Shown here: piece after piece, positions 7,248-53,256 of the stretch
Layout of the letters: each line of letters starts with the position of its first letter
Position numbering within the stretch: the stretch's first letter is position 1
Assembly: GCA_016180645.1 (NCBI GenBank)
Contig: JACPAV010000003.1
Span: 248,001 to 312,000 of the forward strand
From: Nitrospirota bacterium
GTDB lineage: Bacteria > JACPQY01
DNA length: 64,000 nucleotides
Direction: 5' to 3'
Notes under the pieces: generated by a model
What the model was told of the DNA's origin: nothing
Seen by the model: the letters and a program-made list of their open reading frames with translations, nothing else
Databases searched by the model: none
Position numbers and translations under genes: made by a program

Positions 7248-8092
7248 TACCTCGGAACCTGAGTCAGAATCTCCGGCCCGTTGCTCGTGATCGCCACCGT
7301 ATGTTCAAAATGGGCCGAGAGGCTACCATCTTTGGTCCGAACTGTCCAGCCGTCCGGCTCCACGCGCACCTCGCTGCCTCCCGCATTCACCATCGGTTCG
7401 ATCGCCAGCACGAGACCCTCGGTCAAGGGGACACCCTTCCCGGCCTGCCCGTAGTTCGGCACCTGGGGGTCTTCGTGGAGTTGGCGCCCGATCCCGTGGC
7501 CCACGAACTCCCGCACCACCGAGTACCCTCGCTCCTCCACGTAGGCCTGGATGGTATGCGAGATGTCGAACAGTCGATTGCCCGTGCGCGCCTTCTCAAT
7601 TCCCCTGTAGAGCGATTCACGCGTCGAGTCCACCAGCCGGCGGATCTCGTCCGAGACCTCGCCGATGATGTAGGTAAACGCCATGTCAGCATAGAAGCCG
7701 TTGTGGATCAGCCCACAGTCAACTCCTACGATGTCCCCGGCCGTAACTTTCTTGTTCCGATTGGGAATTCCGTGAACGACTTCGTCGTTGATCGACACGC
7801 AAAGGGAGGCCGGGTATCCCCGGTAGCCCTTGAACGCCGGCTTGGCCTTGTGCTTCACGATCCAGTTCTCCGTCTCGCGGTCCAGATCAAAAGTCGATAC
7901 CCCTTCCTTGACCCACTGTCCCAGCTCTTGGAAAAGCTCGGAAAGGAGCCGGCATCCGTCTCCGATGACTTTCAACTCATCCTTTGATTTCAGATCAATC
8001 ACCGGAATACCTCGAAAACGATCCCGCCTTCCCCGGACCGACCCAACCGGCGCGGACACGCGCTCCCTGCCGGCGATTTCCTGGTTTTCCAT
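7247..8092 (-). CDS. map: Type I methionine aminopeptidase
   Basis: This enzyme removes the initiator methionine from nascent proteins and needs two divalent metals. The five metal ligands of the pita-bread fold are seen in order: D (GVDCG), D (YADMAFT), H ([19 protein letters not shown]), E (AIEPMV) and E (HFEHTVAI). At 281 residues it is about 30 longer than the minimal enzyme. The extra N-terminal stretch ([18 protein letters not shown]) is basic and may be ribosome-contacting or simply an early start; the catalytic core begins near residue 36. Position between adk and infA is standard for the spc block. Confidence 0.96.
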
Positions 8093-40347: not shown

Positions 40348-41112
40348 TTACCTAATATGAAGCCAACCCATGTATTTTCTTAAGTGTTGCAACGCCTCCC
40401 CCAACGTTGGTGCGGGCGAATCTCCCCGGGAAAGACTAACCACGGTGGGAACGCCCATCGTGGAGAACGGCTCGTCACGTACTTCCGGAAAGGCTCTCGA
40501 GAGGTGCTTAAAAGTCGCCTTCTCCATCTGAGCCGGATATTGTTTCTTCAGTTCATCTACCATCGCGTTAATGTGGGAATAGACAATGTCGCCGTAGGCC
40601 AGCGCCTCATCACTCGTGGGAATATAGCCTTTGTGGACGACTGCATTTCGAAATTCTCGCCATGTACGCGTCTGAGCCTTCGAGGCCCCCGACAGCTCCG
40701 GCTTCACATCTTCAATCGTCGCAGCAGCCGCTCGATTCTCCATCATGTAGACAAAGAGATAGGCCCCGAATTGCCTTTCCGATTGATTGACAACCCACTT
40801 CCAAGTCTGGTCGTATGTCTCATCCACAATGTTGTTCTTGATGGAGATCACTCGCGTGTAATATTCGTAGAACCTCTCCAGCGCCGAGGCCATGCTTGTT
40901 ACGGCCTCTCGGGGATAGCCGTCCAGGAGAGCCATCGCCCCGATCTCGAATAGGACCTCAAACTTCTGCTGTTGCAGAGCCGTGACACTCCTATGGCCTC
41001 TCCCGCAGACCACAATGAACAACCCATCGTCCCTCATTTCGGCCGCCATAACCTCCGGGTCTGCTTGGAAGTTTTCACGCATGCATTGCATGCACGAGAT
41101 CCGTAGTCTCAT
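40348..41112 (-). CDS. HEPN-motif protein with N-terminal Cys/His cluster
   Basis: A 254-residue protein of no recognised named family. Residues 150-160 read TWREFRNAVVH, giving Arg155-Asn-x3-His160, the Rx4H motif with a polar residue after Arg that marks catalytic HEPN ribonucleases. It lies in an all-helical region as expected for HEPN. The N-terminus has C7-x2-C10 and C36-x3-H40, a possible zinc finger. GGAGGG sits three bases before the ATG. It is the last gene of the defence island, 74 bases after the helicase stop. A toxic RNase or abortive-infection role is inferred from motif and context. The alternative is a non-catalytic Abi-like protein. Confidence 0.6.
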   Translation of the reverse strand: MRLRISCMQCMRENFQADPEVMAAEMRDDGLFIVVCGRGHRSVTALQQQKFEVLFEIGAMALLDGYPREAVTSMASALERFYEYYTRVISIKNNIVDETYDQTWKWVVNQSERQFGAYLFVYMMENRAAAATIEDVKPELSGASKAQTRTWREFRNAVVHKGYIPTSDEALAYGDIVYSHINAMVDELKKQYPAQMEKATFKHLSRAFPEVRDEPFSTMGVPTVVSLSRGDSPAPTLGEALQHLRKYMGWLHIR

Positions 41113-41186: not shown

Positions 41187-44100
41187 CTACCCGCCGGACA
41201 TGAAGTCAAAGCAGACCAAGCGCAGGCTCTCACGGCTGAGCTGCGTGGGCTTGCGGTTTGAACCTCCGGCCCCCACGCCCCCGGCGGCCCCATACTTCCC
41301 CATGAGATCCTCTATCACTCCAACCAATCCCCTCACGTCCTTTCCCCTTTGGAAGGCCTTGTGGGCGGACCGCAACTCCGCCACCTGGACGCCCAGCAAG
41401 GGCCGACTCAGGAATCGGATCACTTCGATCGTGCGCTTCCGATCCAGGTCTGGGTGGTTCGCATAGCCTTGAAGAATGGTCGCCAGAGTTTGCTGGATGG
41501 GATCCACTGAGCGCGGCGCAGACTGTAGTGCCTTCTGTTCTTCTAGGGACCTGAGAATGCTCTCGATGATCCTCTCCTGGATTTCGAAGACATTCTTGAA
41601 CATGCTCGGCTCGACCACCCGTGGGGTGTCGCGGTCACAGGCGATCAGATTCCCGATAATGTACCTGTTATCCAGAATGTCATCCGTTTTCGAATCGTAG
41701 TACTTCCAGAAATTCATGACACCCGATCCCGGAACGTCCGCCTGGAAAAAGAAGAAGATCCCCTTGGCTCCCGCCTTTACGAGGCCGGAGTGGATACCAT
41801 CCGGGATCGAATCCAGCATTTCCTTCCCGCCGGCCCCGATGACCCCCCTCAACTGTTGGAGCAGGAATTCGCTGCTTGCCAGTTCCGCGAATTGTTCCTC
41901 CTCCTCCATGACGGCGCCATCTTCCTCGCTGATCCGCCGAAGGGTGTTGAAATTCCGGGGATGAACGGTTTCGCCAAGAACGCTGGCATCTAAGAACCCC
42001 GCCCGATCAATGTCGGCGATTTTTCTGCTCAGTCGCTCGACCAATCCGAGCAGGCGATCCAATCCGGCGTCCGGAAACATGTTGTAGATCCAGAGAACGT
42101 CGAAATCGCTCCCAATGCGATCAATCCGACCCGCTCGCTGGACCATCCTGGTCGGGTTCCAATGGAGGTCGTAGTTGATGAGATGCCCACAGTCCTGGAG
42201 ATTCTGCCCCTCGGAGAGCACGTCCGTTGAAACAAGGATATGAATTTCCCGATCCGTGCCGATCCAGTCGGGCCTGTCGTTTGCCTTGGGGGCGAATCCC
42301 TGGACGATTCGGAGCCGCTCCTTGGGGTCGGCTCCGCTGTCCATCCGGCGGATGCTCACGCCTCCGAGTGATTTCCGGAACGCCTCGGCGGCGGGATTCT
42401 CGGGGTGCCCCAAGTGGCGATACAGGTATCGTGCCGTGTCCTTGTAATGGGTGAAGATCAGGACTCTCTTCCCGAGAAAATCCGTGGAGAGCAGATCCTT
42501 GAGCCGTGAAAGCTTGGCATCGGCCTCGGGTTTGATGTCCTTGATGCGGAGCCAGATGTCGTTAAGGATTTCAACGTCGTGTTGAACGGCCCTGTGGAGC
42601 TTTCGGAGGTCGTAGAGATTCGGATCGACCGTCCCAACAGATTCAAGAACCTTGCGCGCCTCCTCATTGGCGTCAATTTCCTCCGCCCGCGATAGCGGCG
42701 TCGCATCGTCCTCCTCTTCCTCGCTCGCCACGTATCTCATCGCCTTCTCGAAGTCTGAGCTTCTGATCAGACGGCCGCCCAGGATGTATTCCTCGAACGT
42801 CTTCAGGAATGAGAGGGCGCGGCGGACGCTGATTCGAAATGCCTCAACGCTCGACTCGAACCTCTTGAGATAACGGCTCTTGAAAATGCCGACGAGCGCC
42901 TCCTCACGGCCTGCTTCCATCTCGTCCACCTGCACCCCCTCCTTCTTGTAGTCCTCCAAGTTGTAGGGGGCGAGTTTCAACTTGTCGATCCCCGAGACAA
43001 TGCCCTCATAGATACCGGCATAGGTGCGTTCCAAGTCGTAGCGGACGGTCTTCAGTTTTCGCTCCGGGAAATGAATCTTTTTCCCGCGGATCGTGGCCTC
43101 CGGGTAGGCTTTCCGAATGTGCGGACGGGTTCGGCGGATGACCGCTTCTTCCAGGAGGTTGTAGAGCGCAAACGTGGCGCTGTTTGCTCGTGATTCCCGC
43201 CTGGCCCGGAGGAAATACTTGTGCAGGTCTCCGATTCCGCAGGCCGCGAAATAGCTGCGATCACCCTTCGTGACGAGGCAGAATTGATTGTACAGGTCCA
43301 GCAGGTCATTGCTGATCGGCGTGGCCGTCAGCAGGATGATCTTCTTGGGCATGCCGTCCCGGCCCCTGCCCCCGTTGGTGCCGATAATCCTCTCGAGGCT
43401 TCCATACCGTTGGGCCGTGCGATTTCGGAAATTGTGGGATTCGTCCACCAGGAGGACGTCGGCATCGCCGAAGGGAGACGGGTCGAACTCCTCCCGTCCC
43501 AACTCTTCCTGGGAGACAACCGTCGCCGAGATGCTGGCTTCCCGCAGCTCACGCTCCCACATGTCGCGCAGGCTTGCCGGGCAGATGACCAGCGCCTTCT
43601 GGCGCATGTGGTAGGCGAAGTCTTCGAGGAGCTTCTTTCCGATCCACGTTTTCCCGAGGCCGACGGAGTCCGCGACCATGACTCCGTGGTAAATCCCAAG
43701 GATCTTGCGGGCTTTCTTGACTGCGTCCTCTTGGAATTCCGCCAACTCTACCGCTGAGCGCATGCCAGTCAGCGGGGCGTCTTCCAGTTCATCCTTGAAA
43801 TATTCGTAGAGCGCCTTGAGGTAGACTTGGTAAGGCGTGTATTCCTTCTGACCGAATTTCGACGCGTCGAGCAGGTCGATGAGATCGTGCTTGAAATCCC
43901 GCGCGTCCTCCCATTGTCGGTCGTACCATTGTTCCAGCTCAATGATGGCGCGGGCACCCACCTCGCTCTTGAGGAGCTGCCTGTTCTCTACGGTGATTCT
44001 CTCGCTCGGCTTCGCGTCGGAGAGCCAGGCGACGGATCGGGCGGCCTCAGTATCCTCAGCCTCTGTCTTTTCCAGAAGAACTTTGTGCGCGAGATTCAGT

Positions 44101-44591
44101 TCCCGGTTTGACGTAAGGCCGGGCACGGTGAAGTTGGAGGACCCGACGATGGCCACGATGGGCCGAAAGCGATCAAACAGCATCTGCTGCCCCGGTCGGT
44201 CCGAGTAGAACAGCCAACATTTGGCGTGGAGAAATCCCTCATCGTGGAGACGCACCAAGACCGATTCACGGCGTAGGTAGGCGATCAGGTCCTCGACAAG
44301 GCTTAGGGTCCTTTCCTCAAAGGGGAGGGCTTCAAGGTCCTTGCGAATCAGGCCCCGAATCGCCGCCGGATCGGGCCGGAGGCCAATCTGTTCCCCTGTG
44401 GTCGGTTCAGAGCCAAGCAGGAGTCGAAGATTGCCAAGCCCGGACAGGCCCTCTTTCACCAGGCCGAAGCCGCCGACCGTGAAATAGGCCGAGGCCACAT
44501 CGAGGGATCGGCCCTTGTGCGCTTCGAGAAGCGCCTTGAGGACACCCTGCAAATGGTGTGTTTGATTGTCGATGACATAGGGTATTTTCAT
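41187..44591 (-). CDS. PLD-domain SNF2-like helicase of a defence system
   Basis: A 1134-residue fusion. The N-terminal 170 residues form a phospholipase-D-like domain with HAK (122-124) and GSSNFT (150-155). The helicase part follows: Walker A GLGKT (311-315), motif II DESH (383-386), LLTATPISN (motif III), VLIFTHYKDTARYL at the second RecA domain and QRAGRIDRIG (motif VI). PLD-helicase fusions are known from defence islands alongside large methyltransferases. The ATG at 44591 (MKIPYVIDNQT) is nine bases after the abiEii stop; the earlier in-frame codon lies in that gene. A diverged copy of its first codons remains at 46937-47014. It probably acts on invading DNA with the methyltransferase at 48823-53256. 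Confidence 0.85.
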   Translation of the reverse strand: MKIPYVIDNQTHHLQGVLKALLEAHKGRSLDVASAYFTVGGFGLVKEGLSGLGNLRLLLGSEPTTGEQIGLRPDPAAIRGLIRKDLEALPFEERTLSLVEDLIAYLRRESVLVRLHDEGFLHAKCWLFYSDRPGQQMLFDRFRPIVAIVGSSNFTVPGLTSNRELNLAHKVLLEKTEAEDTEAARSVAWLSDAKPSERITVENRQLLKSEVGARAIIELEQWYDRQWEDARDFKHDLIDLLDASKFGQKEYTPYQVYLKALYEYFKDELEDAPLTGMRSAVELAEFQEDAVKKARKILGIYHGVMVADSVGLGKTWIGKKLLEDFAYHMRQKALVICPASLRDMWERELREASISATVVSQEELGREEFDPSPFGDADVLLVDESHNFRNRTAQRYGSLERIIGTNGGRGRDGMPKKIILLTATPISNDLLDLYNQFCLVTKGDRSYFAACGIGDLHKYFLRARRESRANSATFALYNLLEEAVIRRTRPHIRKAYPEATIRGKKIHFPERKLKTVRYDLERTYAGIYEGIVSGIDKLKLAPYNLEDYKKEGVQVDEMEAGREEALVGIFKSRYLKRFESSVEAFRISVRRALSFLKTFEEYILGGRLIRSSDFEKAMRYVASEEEEDDATPLSRAEEIDANEEARKVLESVGTVDPNLYDLRKLHRAVQHDVEILNDIWLRIKDIKPEADAKLSRLKDLLSTDFLGKRVLIFTHYKDTARYLYRHLGHPENPAAEAFRKSLGGVSIRRMDSGADPKERLRIVQGFAPKANDRPDWIGTDREIHILVSTDVLSEGQNLQDCGHLINYDLHWNPTRMVQRAGRIDRIGSDFDVLWIYNMFPDAGLDRLLGLVERLSRKIADIDRAGFLDASVLGETVHPRNFNTLRRISEEDGAVMEEEEQFAELASSEFLLQQLRGVIGAGGKEMLDSIPDGIHSGLVKAGAKGIFFFFQADVPGSGVMNFWKYYDSKTDDILDNRYIIGNLIACDRDTPRVVEPSMFKNVFEIQERIIESILRSLEEQKALQSAPRSVDPIQQTLATILQGYANHPDLDRKRTIEVIRFLSRPLLGVQVAELRSAHKAFQRGKDVRGLVGVIEDLMGKYGAAGGVGAGGSNRKPTQLSRESLRLVCFDFMSGG

Positions 44592-44599
44592 CACGACCC

Positions 44600-46015
44600 T
44601 CAATGTTTCGTGTCGACAAGATAACCCGATCGGCCCGAGCACCGGTAGCCATTTTTGTCTTTGTGGGGGTTTAGACGTCCGTTATTCTTCGTTCGACTGA
44701 ACTTCTTCCCGCAGTAGGAACATTCAAACACGTAGGTGGGTCTCCCCCGTCCCCGTGCACTCGAAGACCGAATTCGAGCGCCTGAGCCGCTGCCCTCTGT
44801 GGACCGTTGGGCCGTCGGAGGCGTGAGGAAGGGACCGGAAGCGGTCAGCTCAACCGCATACCTGGGCACGAACGGAATTTGCGTCACGGTTGCTCCCTGA
44901 ATCCGATCCACGCGATAGGATCTGGATTCTCCTGTTTGGTGCTTGACAGCGTAGAGAAGGAAACGACCGTCCTTGGTTCGCCGCAACGAATAAGGCTCGA
45001 TGAGCCGTCGGCTGCCTTGGTATCCAAGCTCTACGCAGAGCCGGTTCGCTGCTGCGAAACGAATCGTCTCAAGCGGAACCGGTGAGTGCCAAGCCTGTGC
45101 CATGGCGGGCGGGCGCCATGGCTCGTCAATCTCGGTGACGGTGATCGGGAACGCAGGCAGTTCCTTCTTCTGTGCGCTGCCTTGCATCCATTCGAGAACC
45201 CCGGGCAGTTCCTGCCAAAACTGCTCGAAGGGCGGGAGGGTTGGCAACTGGTGTTTGAGCATGCTTTCCCAATCCGCTTGCAACTCCCGGAGGCCGGGGT
45301 GATTCGTGAGATCCACCATTGTCGGAACGGAGAAACCTTTGAAGGCGCACTTCTTCTCAAGGGCATCCATCAGGAGGTGACGGTCCGGCGCGGCTCCATT
45401 GTACCGATGCAGGTGGATGACATCGTAGAGGTCTCGCGGCCTCAGCCGATCCCTCAGCGCCCGCAACTTCTCCGCGAATACCTCCTCGAATCGATAGCAG
45501 AGTATTTCGATTCCGCCGCCCGGTCCGTCCGAATACGGATGGTGCACGGGACGCTTCGCCGCCTCCAGCACGACCACTTCATCGGCCGTCAAATCGAGCC
45601 TGATCCGCGGCAGATCGCCGCGCATCCCCAAGGGGCCTCTGAATCCGAGCCGCCCTTGTGCCGACTGACCGCCCCTGGGATTCGTGTAGATATCGAAGCG
45701 GTGCGCATCGGCAGGCAGCTCTATGCCGGTCGCCTCATAAGTCCATGTAGCGACTTCGGCAAACGTTTTCGAAAGGAATTCCTCCTTCAGGTGATCCGGA
45801 TCTCTCAAGGTGAAATCCAGGTCTTCCGAGAAACGGTACGTCTCGAAAAAGCATTTCTTGAGACATGTGCCTCCCTTGAAGATCCAGCTTGAGCCAAGTG
45901 CATGGTGGTGCGCGATGCCCGCCAATAACCAACCCAGGACATAGTCCTTCTCAACGATGTTCGGGGCGAGCCCGAATTCTCTCGCGAGGTCCATGATTTC
46001 TTGCTTGTCGATCAC
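44600..46015 (-). CDS. AbiEii-type nucleotidyltransferase toxin fused to WYL-like and zinc-finger regions
   Basis: A 471-residue protein. Residues 1-300 are an AbiEii/AbiGii nucleotidyltransferase, with IFKGGTCLKKC (46-55), SEDLDF (63-68; D65 and D67 bind metal) and EKLRALRDRLRPRDLYDV. Such toxins modify tRNA or other targets with nucleotides. Residues about 312-390 (IRFAAANRL ... RRLIEPYSLRR ... SYRVDRI) look like a WYL domain, and 430-460 hold C432-x2-C435, His451 and Cys459, a likely zinc finger. These extra parts are absent from classical AbiEii (about 300 residues). GTG at 46015 overlaps the abiEi stop (GTGA) and gives the family-typical MIDKQEIMDLAREFGL; an in-frame ATG exists at 46036. 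Confidence 0.82.
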   Translation of the reverse strand: MIDKQEIMDLAREFGLAPNIVEKDYVLGWLLAGIAHHHALGSSWIFKGGTCLKKCFFETYRFSEDLDFTLRDPDHLKEEFLSKTFAEVATWTYEATGIELPADAHRFDIYTNPRGGQSAQGRLGFRGPLGMRGDLPRIRLDLTADEVVVLEAAKRPVHHPYSDGPGGGIEILCYRFEEVFAEKLRALRDRLRPRDLYDVIHLHRYNGAAPDRHLLMDALEKKCAFKGFSVPTMVDLTNHPGLRELQADWESMLKHQLPTLPPFEQFWQELPGVLEWMQGSAQKKELPAFPITVTEIDEPWRPPAMAQAWHSPVPLETIRFAAANRLCVELGYQGSRRLIEPYSLRRTKDGRFLLYAVKHQTGESRSYRVDRIQGATVTQIPFVPRYAVELTASGPFLTPPTAQRSTEGSGSGARIRSSSARGRGRPTYVFECSYCGKKFSRTKNNGRLNPHKDKNGYRCSGRSGYLVDTKH

Positions 46016-46851
46016 TCCGGTTTTTCCCTTGGCCAACTTTCAGGCACCCACAGACGCCATCTGGTGATGAGCCGTTTGCCCCGAACCGCCGGGTCAAGTT
46101 GGGCGTTGCCCGTGGGCATCTTCGCCCTGCACATCTTGAGGGATTCCTTTTCGTCGGGCGCGTACCGCTCCAACAGGTAGCCGAGGCGTTTGAACACCGC
46201 ACCGTTACCGAGTCGAATCGCGTAATCAATGATCCGGTTCATGTCCCTGCTCCTTAATCTCAGGTAGCTTGAGAACATGTCCGCCATGGAGCGAATTCCG
46301 CCTCCGACCTTGGGATCATCCAGCATGTCGAGAATCGTCCGCGCTTCATCTGATACGAACACCTTGACTTGCCCCCGCCAAACCGGCTTCAGCCCGAAGA
46401 GGACACCTTCAGGCACAGTCTTCAGCAGAAATGGTGTGCCTTTCAGCACCGGATTTCGTATTCGCGGACGTCGGGTTGTCATGACGACGACCGCCCGGAA
46501 AATCTGTTCCGTCAGCCCCCAATGGGCTGCCGCGCTCCACCCGCCGATGTAGCAAGGAGAATAGAGTTTCTCGGCGATCAGCCAAGGATCTTCGAGGGGA
46601 ACATCGGCCGTCCTGGATTCGAGCGGTACGGGGACATAGAGCCCACGGCGAACCCGCGAGAGCCACCCCTTCTTGGCCCAGCGGGACAGCAGCTTCGCCG
46701 CTGCGGTCGAACTGAATCCAAGCGCTCGGCTGGCCTCTTTTAGAGACACAGCTCCCTTGGAGGTCCGGAGGACCTCGGCTAGTCTTTGCCTATCGAGCCT
46801 CCCGAGTCCACCCACTTCACCCTTGGCCAGTGCAGTATATCCTAAGCGCAT
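46012..46851 (-). CDS. AbiEi-family antitoxin / transcriptional repressor
   Basis: A 279-residue type IV antitoxin. The N-terminal winged helix (LRTSKGAVSLKEASRALGFS ... LSRVRRGLYVPVP) is followed by the AbiEi domain (DPWLIAEKLYSPCYIGGWSA ... EARTILDMLDDPKVGG). AbiEi proteins bind inverted repeats in their own promoter and counter AbiEii. Here a TATTCA-N9-TGAATA repeat covers the -10 box. The ATG at 46851 lies six bases after the -10, so the mRNA probably has no leader. It overlaps abiEii by four bases. Confidence 0.85.
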   Translation of the reverse strand: MRLGYTALAKGEVGGLGRLDRQRLAEVLRTSKGAVSLKEASRALGFSSTAAAKLLSRWAKKGWLSRVRRGLYVPVPLESRTADVPLEDPWLIAEKLYSPCYIGGWSAAAHWGLTEQIFRAVVVMTTRRPRIRNPVLKGTPFLLKTVPEGVLFGLKPVWRGQVKVFVSDEARTILDMLDDPKVGGGIRSMADMFSSYLRLRSRDMNRIIDYAIRLGNGAVFKRLGYLLERYAPDEKESLKMCRAKMPTGNAQLDPAVRGKRLITRWRLWVPESWPREKPE

Positions 46852-46852
46852 T

Positions 46853-46873
46853 TATTCATACTAGAGGTGAATA
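46853..46873. promoter_or_regulatory. Inverted repeat operator over the abiE -10 box
   Basis: TATTCA (46853-46858) and TGAATA (46868-46873) are exact inverted arms with nine bases between. They cover the -10 hexamer and most of the following bases up to the start codon. An AbiEi dimer bound here would block RNA polymerase. Confidence 0.55.
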
Positions 46874-46886
46874 GCTGCTCTGTCAA
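46858..46886 (-). promoter_or_regulatory. sigma-70 promoter of abiEi-abiEii
   Basis: Perfect TTGACA -35 (46881-46886), 17-base spacer, TAGTAT -10 (46858-46863) on the minus strand. Only GAATAA separates the -10 from the ATG at 46851, so initiation would fall at or next to the A of the start codon, giving a leaderless transcript. Confidence 0.75.
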
Positions 46887-46936
46887 TATACTCACTTTTT
46901 CCGCCTATCCGTTGGCAGCGAGAATGGGGAGCGACC

Positions 46937-47014
46937 TCAAACGAGTTTTGGTGGCTGCTGCCTGCCCGGTTCTTCGGAGAGCGTCTGATTGTCGATGACG
47001 TACGGGATATTCAT
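46937..47014 (-). pseudogene. Remnant 5' end of a second PLD-helicase gene
   Basis: A 25-codon frame starting MNIPYVIDNQT, against MKIPYVIDNQT at the start of the intact helicase (44591). The first 32 bases match at 27 positions; four of the five differences are silent. After Thr11 the similarity ends (LSEEPGRQQPP) and a stop follows at 46937-46939. Its ATG overlaps the stop of the membrane-protein gene (ATGA), as expected for a gene that was once translated in tandem. The abiE promoter begins 50 bases further on. Confidence 0.75.
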
Positions 47015-48762
47015 TGGAAAATGAATAGGGCGATCACGCCGCGCGCTATTGAATCACTATCCTCAATTTGGCGATCGAAGCTCAGCATCTCCGAGACGAA
47101 TTTGCTCATCCCCTGAATGTCATAATGCTCGCCACGCGCGGCCAAAGTATTGAATATGTAGCTCACCCCTGCCCGAGTCGAATTGTCGGCCCAGCTCAAT
47201 TCTCTACTCTCAAGAGCAAATCCGCCGAACACGAAAATGTGCTTCATTGTGTAGTCGAGCATTGTGGGGAAGGCTTCGTCTTGAAGAAGCTGCGGCCGTG
47301 AATGCAATAGCTGGTACAAGTCAGTGGCCAGCCAACGCGCGAGTTGGCCAGCTTGCCGGGAGCAGGAAGGAACAGCCTCGCTCGGAAGCCGGTCGATACA
47401 TTCCCGCACGGCTTCGCGCATCAGACCCGTAAGGAAGCTGGTGATTTCAAACGGTTTGAGCACGAGTATGCGCATCCATAACTCAATCAGCGCACCAAGC
47501 GAAACGAGGGCGTAGGCTGGCTGGTCTCTACGCTTTTCGAGGGCGAGGTCCAATAGCCTGTTCCCTGTCCACATTGCGCTTCGAAACGCCTCTGGGTTTC
47601 CGGAACGATGCAACCGACGTCTCAAGCTCGCGAAGCGTTTGGCTACACCATCTGGACTCTCCACCAACATCGCAACTGTCATGATTTGCCCGAAGCTCGT
47701 GACGAATAGATCCGTAATGCCCGCATAAGTGGAAGCGATCCACCGTTCCAAAAAGCTGTCAATGTCGTCGTGGAGGTAGTGGATTGCCGATACCGCCTCC
47801 TTCAGATCATCCTCGTTTTGAGGTCGCACAGGTATCAATTGGCGCAGCCTCTCAGCGAGGTGGATCATGGTTATTCCAACCTGATTCGGTATGCGCTCGT
47901 GCGCAAGGGCACGACCCGCCTCCGCAAGCGCGAAAACACGTTTGGATGCGATGCCGATTTGGTCCGGCCTCTTCATCATCTGAGCCAGCTTCTTCCCGAT
48001 CAATCCAATACATTCCGAGAAACTGATCAGGTAGCGCATTTGGACGAAAAAGAACGCACGTTCTTCCAGCCATGCTGCCGCAGCCATCGGATCTTCATCG
48101 CACTCGAAAAGCTTGGCATTACAACCAAAGCCCAAAAGACCCATTGCCGTGGACCACATCTCGTGTTCTTCGCTTTGAATGTGAATCTGGATGAGTACCT
48201 CGATGTATATGTTGACGGCAACTCGGTCTCGCACTCCTTCCCATGTACGCGTCTCAAGTTCTCTCAGACCCACCGTAAAACACTCGTCTACCAGCGCCTC
48301 CTCCGATTGCCGAATCCAAAATGATAGCTGTTGGTAGAGGGCGTCGGTGTCGGGATGGAGCAACAGTTTTCGACGGTTTTCCGCGGGCGGTAATCGAACC
48401 TCCAAGACCCGCCTCCATGCTCGCCGCATTATTTCGTGTGGTGTAACCATTCGGATCATGGCCCATAAACAGCCCGCGAAACAGCCCGCGTAGACAACAC
48501 CCGCGAGGAGGACTGAGTCGATCATGTCCTGAGGAAACCATCCTAAGAATAGGCCGCTGCTTAGAACGATCGGCGATGCTGAGAACACGGCAAGGGTGAT
48601 CAGCAGCCATTTTCCTTGTCTTGCCCAAAAGTCCCTATCGGCGAGAATCCTGATGCTATCGAGGCGTCCTCCCCATACAAGCTGAAGGATTGCGACGGCA
48701 AGGCCGCCAAATGTTGCAAGTGCCAGGCCGAGATATCGTAGGGCCTCCGCAGGATTATCCAT
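47011..48762 (-). CDS. Three-TM protein of unknown function in the defence island
   Basis: A 583-residue protein I do not recognise. Three hydrophobic segments lie at the N-terminus (about 9-31, 52-75, 82-104), then about 480 residues of soluble, mostly helical sequence with many Trp, Leu and Arg. No enzyme motif, P-loop or nuclease signature was seen. Codon use is less GC-rich than in neighbouring core genes, suggesting transfer. It starts 60 bases after the methyltransferase and its stop overlaps the ATG of the helicase remnant. This links it to the methyltransferase-helicase pair rather than to abiE. A membrane-associated sensor or effector is possible but unproven. Confidence 0.6.
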   Translation of the reverse strand: MDNPAEALRYLGLALATFGGLAVAILQLVWGGRLDSIRILADRDFWARQGKWLLITLAVFSASPIVLSSGLFLGWFPQDMIDSVLLAGVVYAGCFAGCLWAMIRMVTPHEIMRRAWRRVLEVRLPPAENRRKLLLHPDTDALYQQLSFWIRQSEEALVDECFTVGLRELETRTWEGVRDRVAVNIYIEVLIQIHIQSEEHEMWSTAMGLLGFGCNAKLFECDEDPMAAAAWLEERAFFFVQMRYLISFSECIGLIGKKLAQMMKRPDQIGIASKRVFALAEAGRALAHERIPNQVGITMIHLAERLRQLIPVRPQNEDDLKEAVSAIHYLHDDIDSFLERWIASTYAGITDLFVTSFGQIMTVAMLVESPDGVAKRFASLRRRLHRSGNPEAFRSAMWTGNRLLDLALEKRRDQPAYALVSLGALIELWMRILVLKPFEITSFLTGLMREAVRECIDRLPSEAVPSCSRQAGQLARWLATDLYQLLHSRPQLLQDEAFPTMLDYTMKHIFVFGGFALESRELSWADNSTRAGVSYIFNTLAARGEHYDIQGMSKFVSEMLSFDRQIEDSDSIARGVIALFIFQ

Positions 48763-48822: not shown

Positions 48823-51800
48823 TCACTTTGATCCTTCCACGATGGCGATTTCGCCATCGGTGAGGCCGTAGAGGCGACAAACAGTCCGATCAATCTCCCT
48901 CTCGATTTCCTTCGCATCTCGCTTCTTTTCGGATACTTCGGCTACCAGCCCTGCCAACCTTTCGCGGTCCCGCTCTGGGAAGGCAGGAATCGGTATTTCA
49001 CCAACGTATGTGGATCGCAGTTCGTAAGCCCCGCCTTCGAGCTTGGCGGCGACCTTGTCGAGGAACCACCACGCAACTCGCGAATTAAGGACCGCCAGAA
49101 GGGTCAAATCCCCGGAAGGTACGATCCAGGTCTTGTCGTTGGACAGGAAGGGCTTCGACGTGAAAGCGAATTGCTGATAGGTTGCGATGACTTGGTATCG
49201 AATCGTCGGCCTCCCGAATTCGGCGTAGTAGTCGATGCTGTCCTGGATTTCGTACCATTTGTATGAACCCGGCTTTCTGCCGCCCGGCACCCCAGGCGTA
49301 AGGCGTTTCTTGAACGGGAGAAGGTGCTCCTTGACTGCCGGGTAGCTGTTGATGTCAATCCCGCGCCTCGTAAAGATCAAGTACAACCCCGCCCATTCGA
49401 CGCGCCAGCGTTTGATGTCACGGCCCCGCAGGAAAGGCTTGATGATCTGATCGCTCTTGGGATCCGCGGCAATCAACTTCTGACGCTTCGCCCCGTCGAT
49501 CACGAACGCCTCGTTGTAGCCGGTCTTGATGCCATAGTAGAATTTGTCCCCGATCACCTCCCGCAACGGCCTCCCGCCCGCCCGAATCTTCTCCAAGAGT
49601 TTCAGCACTTCCGGCCTCTGGAGGGTCCATCCCTCGTCACGAAGAGTCCGAATGAGGATGGGCACCCCCCGCGTCTCGACCGTTTCCTTCACGTTTTCGG
49701 CCTCTCCCATCGTTTCCACGGAAAGCGTTTTCACTTGATGGCCTTCCACTGGATTTTCTTTCTGGGCGATTAGAACCAATGGGTACGCCGTCGCCTCCGG
49801 GAAGAGCGGCAGATCCCGGAAATCGATGATCTTTTCGACGGACTGCTTCTTCAGATATTTTCGCAAAGCTTCTCCGTAGCCGGCCCTCAAATACTTGTTG
49901 GAGGTGATCATTCCAAACCGCCCTCCCACCCGGCACAGGCCAAGACCCCGAGAGTAGAAATACACATAGACGTCCGCAACTCCGGAGTAAACATCCTTGT
50001 AGCAGACTTCATAAAACGGTTTGTCCTGTCCCAGCCCTTCCTGCCGGACGTACGGTGGATTTCCGACTACGGCGTCGAATCCGGCGCCTTCCAAACGCTC
50101 GATGGTCTGCTGGGTCCCCGGGCGCGGGCCATAGAAGACCTCCGGGAACTCGATCTCCCAATGGAAGAACCGCTTTTCCTCAGAGGCCCGCAACGCAGCC
50201 TCCAGGAGTTTCTTGTTTTCAGGGGACAGCTTCGCCTTGTCGGGCTTCAGGGACCACTCCGGCGCCGTCCGGTCCCGAAGGAACTCCTCGACTCGATTGT
50301 GAACGACCTTCTTCTTTCCCTTTCCTGACGCAACCGGTTCATTCCCGAACCACTGGCTCGCGTACGCGTCGAACAACCTCTTGAAGGGCGCAAGATACTC
50401 TACGGCCAGATTGTATTGCTTACGAGACTCTCGCGTCTGAGCGGATGTGACATCCGGCAGCGCACCCACTTGAATCATGGCCCCGGCAGCGGCCTTGACG
50501 CCTGCGAACTGGGTGCCGCCCAGCAGATTCAACTGGCCCTTCTGGACGTCCTGGAGGTCTTTTTCAGAAACACCGATCAGCGAGTTCCCGCAACGGAGGT
50601 GATGGTCCAGGAACGACAGCGGAGCGCCAAGCGTGAAACAGTCGAGCCAGAGGGAAACCTTGGCCAATTCGACCGCCATGGGGTTGAGGTCCACTCCGTA
50701 AATGCACCGTTTCAGGACGTGCCGTTTCAGCAGATTCACGTCCGTAAGCCGCCCCCGGTCGATCGAGATGCCCCGTTCATCCATCTCGGAAAAGATCGTA
50801 TTGCGCATCCGCTCCAGATAGGCGGCGACGGGATTCCACGGGAAGGCATTCAGAAAATCGAGTGTTTTGTCCGTGATGAAGTCCACGGCCTCCACAAGGA
50901 AATGTCCGGAGCCCATCGCGGGGTCGAGTACCTTGATATTGAAAAGCTCGTCCACCAGTTCTTGCCCAACGAGATCTGCCTTGCTCGCCGGCTCAGGCTT
51001 GATGCCTTGCTTCCCCAGGGCCTCCTGTTTCTTAAAGAAGGCTTGTCGCGCCTGCTGGGCTTCGCGGAGTTTCGGCCGCATGGCCTCGAATTTCTCCTTG
51101 AAAACGGGACCGATGGCGTGTTCGACGATGTATTTCACGATGTAGTCCGGCGTGTAGTAGGACCCCGTAGCCTTCCGTTCCCGTTTGTTATTCTCAAGGT
51201 AGGACTGCCCCTTCCTGACAATGCGTTCCTGTTTCTCGGCCTTCTCCTTCGCGTTGGCATCCAGTTCCTCGAAGGGAACATAGAATTCCCGGTTCTTTTC
51301 TTTGACGATCGCGAGTTTCTCGCCGGCAATCCGAAGCTTGAATTCCAGCAGACCCTCATAAATCGAACCGAGTTGGCGGACGCCGAGCGACTTGTAGTCG
51401 ATGAATACAAGCTCAAGCAGCTTCGGATCGGCATCCCTCGACAGGCGGTCCAGCGCGGGGGCGAGGAACGCATCCGCCACTTTGGCGGTGTTGAGGAATC
51501 GTGCGGACTGGGCTTCCGGCGTTTCGTCGTCCTTGTCGGGCTTCGTCAGGAACAGGCCGCCGTTGTACATCGGGACATTCATTGCGGGTTCGCCCTCGTC
51601 CACGACCCTGAACAATCTCAGCAGACGATCGTACAGACCATAGGAATCCTGCCTGAAGGCTTTTCCCAGGTTCTTCGCGGATTCGTCCTCAATCTTTCCG
51701 CCTGACTCGGCGATCTCCTTCTTGAGCTTCGTCAGGCTGGATTCGAAGTATCCTCTGACTTCTCTGACCGGCAACAAATCTCTCGCCTCCGCATAGAGAA

Positions 51801-53256
51801 GGAAAAGAATCCGGTACAGAGGCGTGAGCGTCCCCTGAAAAATCCGGTCGAGCGTCTCTTCGGTGAACGCGGACTTGGGGTCGACCTGTTCGCGAATGGA
51901 ATGGATGAATCCGGATGCCAAATGCGGAAAGACATCCTCAAATACCCGTGTCTTTAGCCGCTCTCCCAGTTCTTTCGCGTACTCCTCGCTTTCGACCACA
52001 AGACGGTCCAGGAGGGATAGGTGAACCTTCTTCCCCTCGCGTTCCATTTCCTGCTTCTCGAATGCGGATCGACGGAAGACCGCCCAGAAATACCTGAACG
52101 AATCCGCGAAATCGCCGGATCGAGGACCCGACTCGGCCAGCACCTCATCGAGGTCGATCTCGTAGTAGTTGGTCGCCCTTGAATGCGTTTTCTGGGAATA
52201 GAGCCGCCAAAGCTTCCCGTTCGTCACGATGACCCACGGCGACTCCCCCTCTTCAAGCAAGCTCACGACGACGGCGCCTGGATTCTCTTCGGGGGTCTCC
52301 TTGTCGCGCCTGTCATCCTTACCGTCCAGCGATCTCGCCCACGGATAGACGAGGCATCCCGCGAGAAGAGTCTTCGGATCGTCTGGAGAATGGAGGCGAT
52401 AGTCCGCCTCTGAAACCGGGCTTCCGGAGCGCTTTCCCTCGGCGCACTTGAAGCCCAGGGCATCCAAGACCGGCACCACAAGCTCCTTCCGTAGAACCGA
52501 CTCGCTCTTATTGACGAACCGGTCGGCCGCACCCTGGTAGAGAGTTCGCAGGCGCAGATAGACCGGTTTCGGATCCTCTTTCCATGCGGAAGACAAGTCG
52601 GGCAGCCGTTTGAGGAGGTAGTAGTCGGAGAAGATCGCACGGTTGTTGAAATGGTCCTCCGACCAGTCCGCGGTGGCGTAGGCTCCGAGGAGCTTGTCGT
52701 ATTGGGCGAAGGCGTCGCTCTCCGTCCACGTGAAGCGTCGGAGGACTCTGAGATGAACCCTCTCGGGCTTTAGCCGATCAACCGTAAGAATCCTTGGGCG
52801 GATGCCCACCTGTTTCTGGCCGATTCCGGCGGGTTCCTGCGTGTCCGGTGGGAGGTATTTTTCCAGGATAACGAAATCGAGCCGTTCATAGTCGCTCGTC
52901 AAAACCAGCAGGTAGTTCCCGGCCCTGTTGCGGAAGGCGCGGGCCAGCGTACGCGTGTGGGAGATATTGACACTTGACAGTTCGAGCAGATACACCTGAA
53001 ACAGACCACCCTCCTGACTTGCGATCAGTTCGATGTTCTTGATCGGCCGTGTGGCTCCCTCCGCGGTAATTCCCAAATTCGCAGCGGTCTGTTTTGTCCG
53101 ACCCGAGGTATCGTAGCCAAGCCTGGTGAAGAGCGCGGCTACTGCATCCGGGGATGATAGCGGCTGAACGTCGTGGTGGGTCAGTTCAAGGTCAAGAACG
53201 AGTTTCGACGCTTCATTCACGCCTTGAAATATCGGCCAGTTCGACCGCTGGGTCAA
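48823..53256 (-). CDS. Large PglX/type IIG-like adenine DNA methyltransferase
   Basis: A 1477-residue class I methyltransferase of the Eco57I/PglX kind. Motif I VLDPAMGSGHFLVEA (776-790), YGVDLNPMAVELAK (853-866) and the catalytic NPPY (1066-1069, VVGNPPYVRQEG) identify an N6-adenine enzyme. The last 350 residues look like a TaqI-type target-recognition region. The N-terminal 690 residues include a segment (ELVVPVLDALGFKCAEG ... EADYRL ... LVYPWARS, 259-308) resembling the degenerate nuclease-like region of type IIG enzymes, but no clear PD-ExK triad can be assigned. The outermost start is TTG at 53256; GTG at 53220 is an equally good candidate. It is the first gene of the island's transcript and probably provides self/non-self marking for the PLD-helicase. 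Confidence 0.85.
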   Translation of the reverse strand: MTQRSNWPIFQGVNEASKLVLDLELTHHDVQPLSSPDAVAALFTRLGYDTSGRTKQTAANLGITAEGATRPIKNIELIASQEGGLFQVYLLELSSVNISHTRTLARAFRNRAGNYLLVLTSDYERLDFVILEKYLPPDTQEPAGIGQKQVGIRPRILTVDRLKPERVHLRVLRRFTWTESDAFAQYDKLLGAYATADWSEDHFNNRAIFSDYYLLKRLPDLSSAWKEDPKPVYLRLRTLYQGAADRFVNKSESVLRKELVVPVLDALGFKCAEGKRSGSPVSEADYRLHSPDDPKTLLAGCLVYPWARSLDGKDDRRDKETPEENPGAVVVSLLEEGESPWVIVTNGKLWRLYSQKTHSRATNYYEIDLDEVLAESGPRSGDFADSFRYFWAVFRRSAFEKQEMEREGKKVHLSLLDRLVVESEEYAKELGERLKTRVFEDVFPHLASGFIHSIREQVDPKSAFTEETLDRIFQGTLTPLYRILFLLYAEARDLLPVREVRGYFESSLTKLKKEIAESGGKIEDESAKNLGKAFRQDSYGLYDRLLRLFRVVDEGEPAMNVPMYNGGLFLTKPDKDDETPEAQSARFLNTAKVADAFLAPALDRLSRDADPKLLELVFIDYKSLGVRQLGSIYEGLLEFKLRIAGEKLAIVKEKNREFYVPFEELDANAKEKAEKQERIVRKGQSYLENNKRERKATGSYYTPDYIVKYIVEHAIGPVFKEKFEAMRPKLREAQQARQAFFKKQEALGKQGIKPEPASKADLVGQELVDELFNIKVLDPAMGSGHFLVEAVDFITDKTLDFLNAFPWNPVAAYLERMRNTIFSEMDERGISIDRGRLTDVNLLKRHVLKRCIYGVDLNPMAVELAKVSLWLDCFTLGAPLSFLDHHLRCGNSLIGVSEKDLQDVQKGQLNLLGGTQFAGVKAAAGAMIQVGALPDVTSAQTRESRKQYNLAVEYLAPFKRLFDAYASQWFGNEPVASGKGKKKVVHNRVEEFLRDRTAPEWSLKPDKAKLSPENKKLLEAALRASEEKRFFHWEIEFPEVFYGPRPGTQQTIERLEGAGFDAVVGNPPYVRQEGLGQDKPFYEVCYKDVYSGVADVYVYFYSRGLGLCRVGGRFGMITSNKYLRAGYGEALRKYLKKQSVEKIIDFRDLPLFPEATAYPLVLIAQKENPVEGHQVKTLSVETMGEAENVKETVETRGVPILIRTLRDEGWTLQRPEVLKLLEKIRAGGRPLREVIGDKFYYGIKTGYNEAFVIDGAKRQKLIAADPKSDQIIKPFLRGRDIKRWRVEWAGLYLIFTRRGIDINSYPAVKEHLLPFKKRLTPGVPGGRKPGSYKWYEIQDSIDYYAEFGRPTIRYQVIATYQQFAFTSKPFLSNDKTWIVPSGDLTLLAVLNSRVAWWFLDKVAAKLEGGAYELRSTYVGEIPIPAFPERDRERLAGLVAEVSEKKRDAKEIEREIDRTVCRLYGLTDGEIAIVEGSK
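53228..53256 (-). promoter_or_regulatory. Possible promoter of the methyltransferase gene
   Basis: TTGACC (53251-53256), 17 bases, GATATT (53228-53233) on the minus strand. Initiation would then fall at or beside the GTG at 53220, making that start leaderless. The -10 match is only fair, and the elements lie inside the longer possible reading frame. Confidence 0.35.

Follow-up and report, generated by a model that had tools for sequence, protein, structure and literature searches.

Stranded core-gene ends point to replacement of operon halves in a methyltransferase-helicase defence locus of a Nitrospirota bacterium

The stretch analysed here (64,000 nt of contig JACPAV010000003.1 from a Nitrospirota bacterium, hereafter the window) carries on its minus strand an operon in the order methyltransferase, 583-aa protein, helicase remnant, abiEi, abiEii with a WYL domain, and helicase. 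Methyltransferase and helicase form the core of a defence operon that bacteria appear to restock by swapping its halves, and the remnant, a short open reading frame (ORF) at 47014, reads as the stranded 5' end of an earlier helicase gene. This scar is probably explained by replacement of one half of the operon, which brought in AbiE and a second helicase allele, and would be one instance of a process general to this family. Restriction-like operons are known to harbour back-up toxins and nucleases, yet how these enter an operon that keeps working can seldom be seen. Stranded pieces of two genes in several loci provide direct sequence evidence of one route, namely half replacement together with cargo.

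The stranded helicase start

The intact helicase begins on the minus strand at 44591 (ATGAAAATACCCTATGTCATCGACAATCAAACA, translated MKIPYVIDNQT), and a second start on the same strand at 47014 (ATGAATATCCCGTACGTCATCGACAATCAGACG, MNIPYVIDNQT) copies its first 11 codons. The frame of this remnant comprises 25 codons and closes with a TGA at 46939-46937. An earlier note on this DNA had described a second start that repeats the helicase 5' end, breaks off and stops at 46937, and whose ATG overlaps the stop codon of the 583-aa gene (47013-47011) as ATGA; the sequence confirms both observations. Its count of 27 matching bases also stands, but these lie among 33 positions with six differences, five of them silent, and not among 32 with five differences and four silent. 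Every one of the six differences falls at a third codon position, the single replacement being K by N at codon 2 (AAA/AAT), and six random differences under free drift would be arranged in this way with p ~4e-4. This pattern, with just one replacement, supports the view that the remnant and the intact helicase diverged while both were functional, and the codon positions argue that the intact helicase derives from a different allele than the remnant.

Similarity to the helicase ends after codon 11, and the last 14 codons of the remnant frame are no closer to helicases (codons 12-50) than shuffled sequences, which equalled them in 186/300 cases for DNA and 45/500 for protein. The earlier note had placed the recombination joint after codon 11 as well. 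An apparent extension beyond this point, in which LSEEPGRQ resembles LAEHRGRS of the remnant in locus L119 (see below), was rejected as not significant. The two parts of the short ORF are as follows.

46982..47014, minus strand: scar, first 11 codons of the displaced helicase (MNIPYVIDNQT); 27/33 nt identical and recovered in a decoy-controlled scan
46937..46981, minus strand: remainder of the short ORF (LSEEPGRQQPPKLV, then stop), left edge of the putative inserted segment; without significant helicase similarity

Related loci were collected by scanning genomes with the helicase alignment A3, which returned at least 80 loci, and L003 was added from a viral contig; further searches at phylum level added few. 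The close helicases share the N-terminal motif (I/L/V)P(Y/F)VIDN as a hallmark. When 34 helicase N-termini were scanned for stray starts against 2.6 million codons (the window and 81 loci), the only matches of at least 8/11 outside true starts were the remnant of the window and one in L119, while eight permuted decoys gave no match of at least 9/11. The sequence occurs once in the genome, and an assembly duplicate was rejected because the two copies differ at 18% of sites.

Locus L119 (Candidatus Methylomirabilota) encodes the nearest helicase among the loci listed (77%). At 7752, just before its abiEi, it carries a decayed helicase 5' end (MRIPCVIDNQTNRLAEHRGRSRDVASTYLS; E=3e-6 against its own helicase) from which eight codons are gone between two copies of TGGCCGA and which stays in frame over ~35 codons. 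As its differences from the intact gene are spread over all codon positions (3, 4, 5), this remnant appears to be decaying. The AbiE of L119 is of another subfamily than that of the window, and L119 is supported as an independent case of a helicase remnant before abiEi.

It is very improbable that the short ORF is instead an ancestral functional element, such as a leader peptide or a coupling device. Such an element would account for the preserved ATG, ATGA overlap and 25-codon open frame in the window and for the open frame in L119. The ORF is, however, absent from ~60 other listed helicase loci, four AbiE loci among them; in addition, the L119 copy has suffered its deletion between short repeats and differs at all codon positions, and the frames of the two loci have unrelated ends.

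The two-gene core and its hypervariable slot

The core of the system is the pair of methyltransferase and HKD-SNF2 helicase, with a hypervariable slot between them.

48823..53256, minus strand: core gene 1, N6-adenine DNA methyltransferase with a TaqI-type target recognition domain, 1477 aa, TTG start
47011..48762, minus strand: resident cargo, 583 aa, hydrophobic helices at the N-terminus
41187..44591, minus strand: core gene 2, HKD(PLD)-SNF2 helicase, 1134 aa (Pfam, PADLOC)

Adjacency was surveyed in loci that show both core genes and whose helicase is at least 48% identical. The two genes abut (slot of at most 12 nt) in L126, L129, L154 and L158; in L140 and L141 they almost do, and most of the other surveyed loci hold cargo between them. 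Because the core genes are adjacent in some loci and the slot varies in others, the core consists of two genes and the 583-aa protein is cargo. The earlier proposal that methyltransferase, membrane protein and helicase made up the original system is not supported, as the core genes abut in four loci and the slot is hypervariable. Its suggestion that the 583-aa gene was once coupled directly to the helicase by ATGA is, in turn, supported by the spacing in relatives: among 28 cargo-bearing loci of the clade, the gap before the helicase is exactly -4 in 4/28 and between -4 and +15 in 12/28. The contents of the slot, as assigned by Pfam, are highly diverse.

L118: nucleotidyltransferase and HepT
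L119, L155: DUF3800
L120: Mrr, DUF5615
L121: IrrE-like and DUF4411
L122, L136: Schlafen AlbA_2
L123: protein kinase
L127: AAA and S8 protease
L128, L130, L135: OLD-type ATPases
L145 (5338-9971): Piwi (pAgo-like) with DpnII-like and Mrr nucleases, between methyltransferase and helicase
L146: PIN

Relatives on plasmids carry a nucleotidyltransferase with SLATT, or DUF262. Searches of Pfam, PADLOC and NCBIfam gave no hit for the 583-aa protein, nor did those of 80 helicase loci, 98 genomes, plasmids and viral contigs, and the fold model of this protein from the single sequence is all-helical, of low confidence (pLDDT, the predicted local distance difference test, 43), uninformative and too poor for a structure search. 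With AbiE, pAgo, OLD, Schlafen, MNT-HepT, kinase, PIN and family-less proteins among its contents, the slot is a hunting ground for effectors like this one.

An orthologue of the methyltransferase (Pfam Eco57I 3e-38, TaqI_C 6e-11; PADLOC DrmMI and type IIG models match) precedes the helicase in relatives. Outside the target domain it is 69% identical to that of L119, and in the target part (48823-49985) it is 36-38% identical to L150 and L003, the closest, and 25% to L119. An exchange of the target domain may have taken place, and exchanges of this kind may contribute to half replacement. The helicase matches Helicase_C (3e-19), SNF2 (2e-8) and PLDc_2 (3e-5, below its cut-off) in Pfam, the PLD residues FLHAK..GSSN are kept in relatives, and its best PADLOC match is HKD+Snf2 (C3a139; 8.4e-65, residues 99-862). 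Downstream of it, a 254-aa protein (40348-41112) is without a family match and not evidently part of the core.

The AbiE cassette lies between the remnant and the intact helicase.

46858..46886, minus strand: predicted sigma-70-like promoter, TTGACA-17-TAGTAT; 10/12 matches, 0.4 expected in shuffles
46834..46892, minus strand: putative AbiEi operator, an imperfect palindrome over the abiE promoter; 0/100 shuffles as good
46012..46851, minus strand: abiEi, predicted antitoxin/repressor, 279 aa; Pfam AbiEi_4 1.8e-11, PADLOC AbiEi 1.5e-111
44600..46015, minus strand: abiEii, predicted nucleotidyltransferase toxin with a C-terminal WYL domain and a Cys-containing tail; Pfam AbiEii 2.7e-39, WYL 7e-8

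The probable GTG start of abiEii, placed by reading the sequence, overlaps the abiEi stop as GTGA. Window-type AbiE, with both genes, is also found alone on plasmids, where full-length AbiEii relatives (~50% identical) stand by themselves in Thiodictyon and Rhizobium, so that the cassette can be regarded as an independent module. It would also have brought its own promoter, as TTGACA-17-TAGTAT stands just before abiEi under the palindrome (25-nt arms, 18/25 paired, 9-nt spacer). This arrangement supports the earlier claim that a segment carrying abiEi and abiEii entered the operon. According to PMC7319586, abiE autoregulation acts through inverted repeats in the promoter, and the predicted layout fits that description. 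Since the promoter (region 46851-46892) ends ~6 bases ahead of the annotated abiEi ATG, the mRNA may be leaderless or the abiEi start may lie further in. The distance from abiEii to the helicase start is 8 nt in the window and -4 in L127 and L128, and with such close coupling the helicase may also be transcribed from the promoter that AbiEi would control.

AbiE adjoins the helicase in all six loci that contain it (the window, L003, L117, L119, L127 and L128). Its antitoxins fall into three groups: those of L117, L119, L127 and L128 are 70-80% identical to one another, while those of the window and L003 show 30-39% identity to the others. Mapped onto the helicase tree, the AbiE label must have changed three times or more on well-supported branches. 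Given three AbiEi groups and these label changes, AbiE would have been recruited several times into one position, usually behind other cargo. The arrivals in the window and L119 would be separate events, because their AbiEi proteins are only 32% identical, as against 70-80% inside the L119 group. In L119 itself AbiEii is cut to about its last 25 codons (L119:8820-8899) and abiEi is intact, which leaves an antitoxin without a toxin.

Mirror scars and the replacement of operon halves

Core-gene scars are of two kinds and occur in four loci, the window, L119, L121 and L127. The second kind consists of stranded methyltransferase 3' ends. In L127 an 82-nt methyltransferase 3' end is present twice (L127:3654-3734 and L127:7298-7379; 85% identical; hidden Markov model E 1e-13 and 2e-10) and flanks the AAA-S8 cargo. 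Their tail type departs from that of the intact L127 methyltransferase and resembles the one in L128, the helicase sister of this locus. In L121 a methyltransferase tail of the L003 type follows directly after the locus's own methyltransferase (tblastn 5e-13). A short tail-like piece in L119 (GLTEEEIAIVQG) lies before the helicase remnant, with a weak match (E=0.23); taken as real, it would mean that the present slot of L119 encloses the two ends of a former one. An apparent tail duplicate in L128 was rejected, since a run of N simply precedes the true end of that gene.

Where sister loci differ in cargo, the DNA they have in common usually begins only at the helicase start. Relative to it, the boundary lies at -11 in L117/L118, 0 in L144/L145, -2 in L150/L151 (93-94% identical), +4 in L131/L136 and -27 in L138/L142, and between L146 and L144 the methyltransferase similarity ends at its stop codon. 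Tight packing and selection for intact core genes are sufficient for such sharp boundaries, and a site-specific mechanism is not needed. The helicase 5' end as an att-like site was rejected, as its wobble bases vary freely among loci (judged by eye). The sister helicases of L117 and L118 are ~90% identical in DNA, with AbiE in the former and nucleotidyltransferase-HepT in the latter, and neither locus has a methyltransferase directly upstream.

The order of events that we infer is as follows. In the resident operon, the methyltransferase would have been followed by the 583-aa cargo and the helicase, the last two coupled by ATGA. The incoming segment would have carried promoter, abiEi, abiEii and some or all of a second functional helicase allele, its 5' part included. 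An illegitimate joint would have connected the left end of the segment to the resident helicase behind codon 11. The right end, probably joined by homology, would lie within the helicase or past it, with stacked cargo and one intact helicase as the outcome. In general terms, one half of the two-gene core would be replaced along with its cargo and the inner end of the displaced gene kept as a marker. A right-half event, in which cargo and helicase enter, would leave a helicase head, as in the window and L119, and a left-half event, in which methyltransferase and cargo enter, would leave a methyltransferase tail, as in L127 and perhaps L121. Such replacement would be tolerated because no core gene is needed in more than a single functional copy.

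Alternatively, the AbiE cassette could have been inserted alone at the helicase start, duplicating its first codons and involving no second helicase allele. Both helicase remnants do sit exactly at the cassette edge, that of L119 is most like its own intact helicase, and the relatives of methyltransferase and helicase are congruent. This course of events is nevertheless quite unlikely: the differences in the window, confined to third positions and mostly silent, point to two copies that diverged while selected, the window remnant is no nearer its own helicase (27/33) than several helicases from other phyla (26-29/33), and the foreign-type methyltransferase tails of L127 and L121 would be left unexplained.

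Several observations nonetheless weigh against half replacement with a second allele. For both core genes of the window the closest relatives are the same and come in almost identical order, and sliding identity along the helicase shows no step, so that no mosaic is seen. The L119 remnant, nearest to its own intact helicase (30/33), is compatible with local duplication there. Moreover, 33 nt are too short to place the window remnant in a clade, helicase remnants were found in just 2 of ~60 listed loci with a visible helicase start, and sharp breakpoints at start codons could arise from selection alone where core and cargo genes are tightly packed. The G+C content of 0.54-0.59 throughout the operon says nothing on foreign origin. 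Of the replacement history first proposed, a half-swap that leaves a scar gains support from the mirror scars and L119, while a foreign origin of the helicase is suggested by the codon positions and not by phylogeny; with congruent relatives and no mosaic, it is not independently shown.

A further variant departs from half replacement as set out above solely in the make-up of the donor, which would have been a ready-made AbiE-helicase unit without methyltransferase, taken whole and with no exchange between complete operons. L117 is an example of such a unit, its genome yields only a methyltransferase fragment (on another contig, 66% over the first 130 residues), and no close methyltransferase was found in the genome of L118. 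However, the contigs of these draft metagenome-assembled genomes are short and the AbiE of L117 belongs to a different subfamily than that of the window, which makes a donor of this type rather unlikely.

Perhaps, although this is tentative and on balance doubtful, the slot is a dedicated accretion site in which half-systems repeatedly displace the resident half and leave ordered markers, AbiE being favoured beside the helicase as its repressed promoter takes over helicase expression. If so, the history of cargo gain could be read from one locus. Cargo modules can be dated relative to one another by means of such scars, and other slots could be found by searching for stranded core-gene ends.

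Function and likeness to known systems

Judged by its domains, the core probably functions in the manner of an ATP-dependent restriction-modification system in which the methyltransferase protects self and the HKD-SNF2 translocase-nuclease cuts unmodified DNA. The parts for this are present: Eco57I with TaqI_C in the former, SNF2 with Helicase_C in the latter, together with a PLDc_2 match below its cut-off that retains FLHAK and GSSN. Nuclease effectors with an auxiliary or back-up role are embedded in loci of BREX and BREX-related (BR) systems (PMC12839542), and by analogy slot cargo such as AbiE probably serves as back-up abortive effectors.

The resemblance to BREX and BR systems extends to the core of N6-methyltransferase and Swi2/Snf2 helicase, to the N-terminal HKD nuclease of the helicase in Type-2 BR, and to MNT-HEPN, OLD-TOPRIM and PIN modules embedded among BR core genes (PMC12839542). 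In contrast to these systems, the methyltransferase here is of the Eco57I/TaqI_C type, PglZ was not found, and Pfam gave neither the DUF499 ATPase nor DUF3780 of Type-2 BR among the operon proteins. Displaced ends of core genes were not found described in the available part of that account (PMC12839542).

Helicase and methyltransferase also match the DrmD and DrmMI models of DISARM class 1 (drmD, drmMI, drmA, drmB, drmC), the NCBIfam DrmD match of 1.7e-41 being far below the cut-off. Neither drmB nor drmC is among the models listed as matching proteins of the operon and its neighbourhood, and drmA is represented only through the helicase domain of P0001; unlike DISARM class 1, the helicase here has its own PLD domain. 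The PADLOC candidate C3a139, the best helicase match, is a single-protein model and silent on cargo and scars.

Finally, the cassette resembles AbiE type IV toxin-antitoxin systems (PMC3985639, PMC7319586) in that an AbiEi antitoxin with a winged-helix N-terminus and an AbiEii directly downstream stand in the usual order, with the predicted promoter under an inverted repeat. It differs from those described there in the additional WYL and Cys-containing C-terminal parts of AbiEii and in its position inside a restriction-like operon, where it would read into the helicase.

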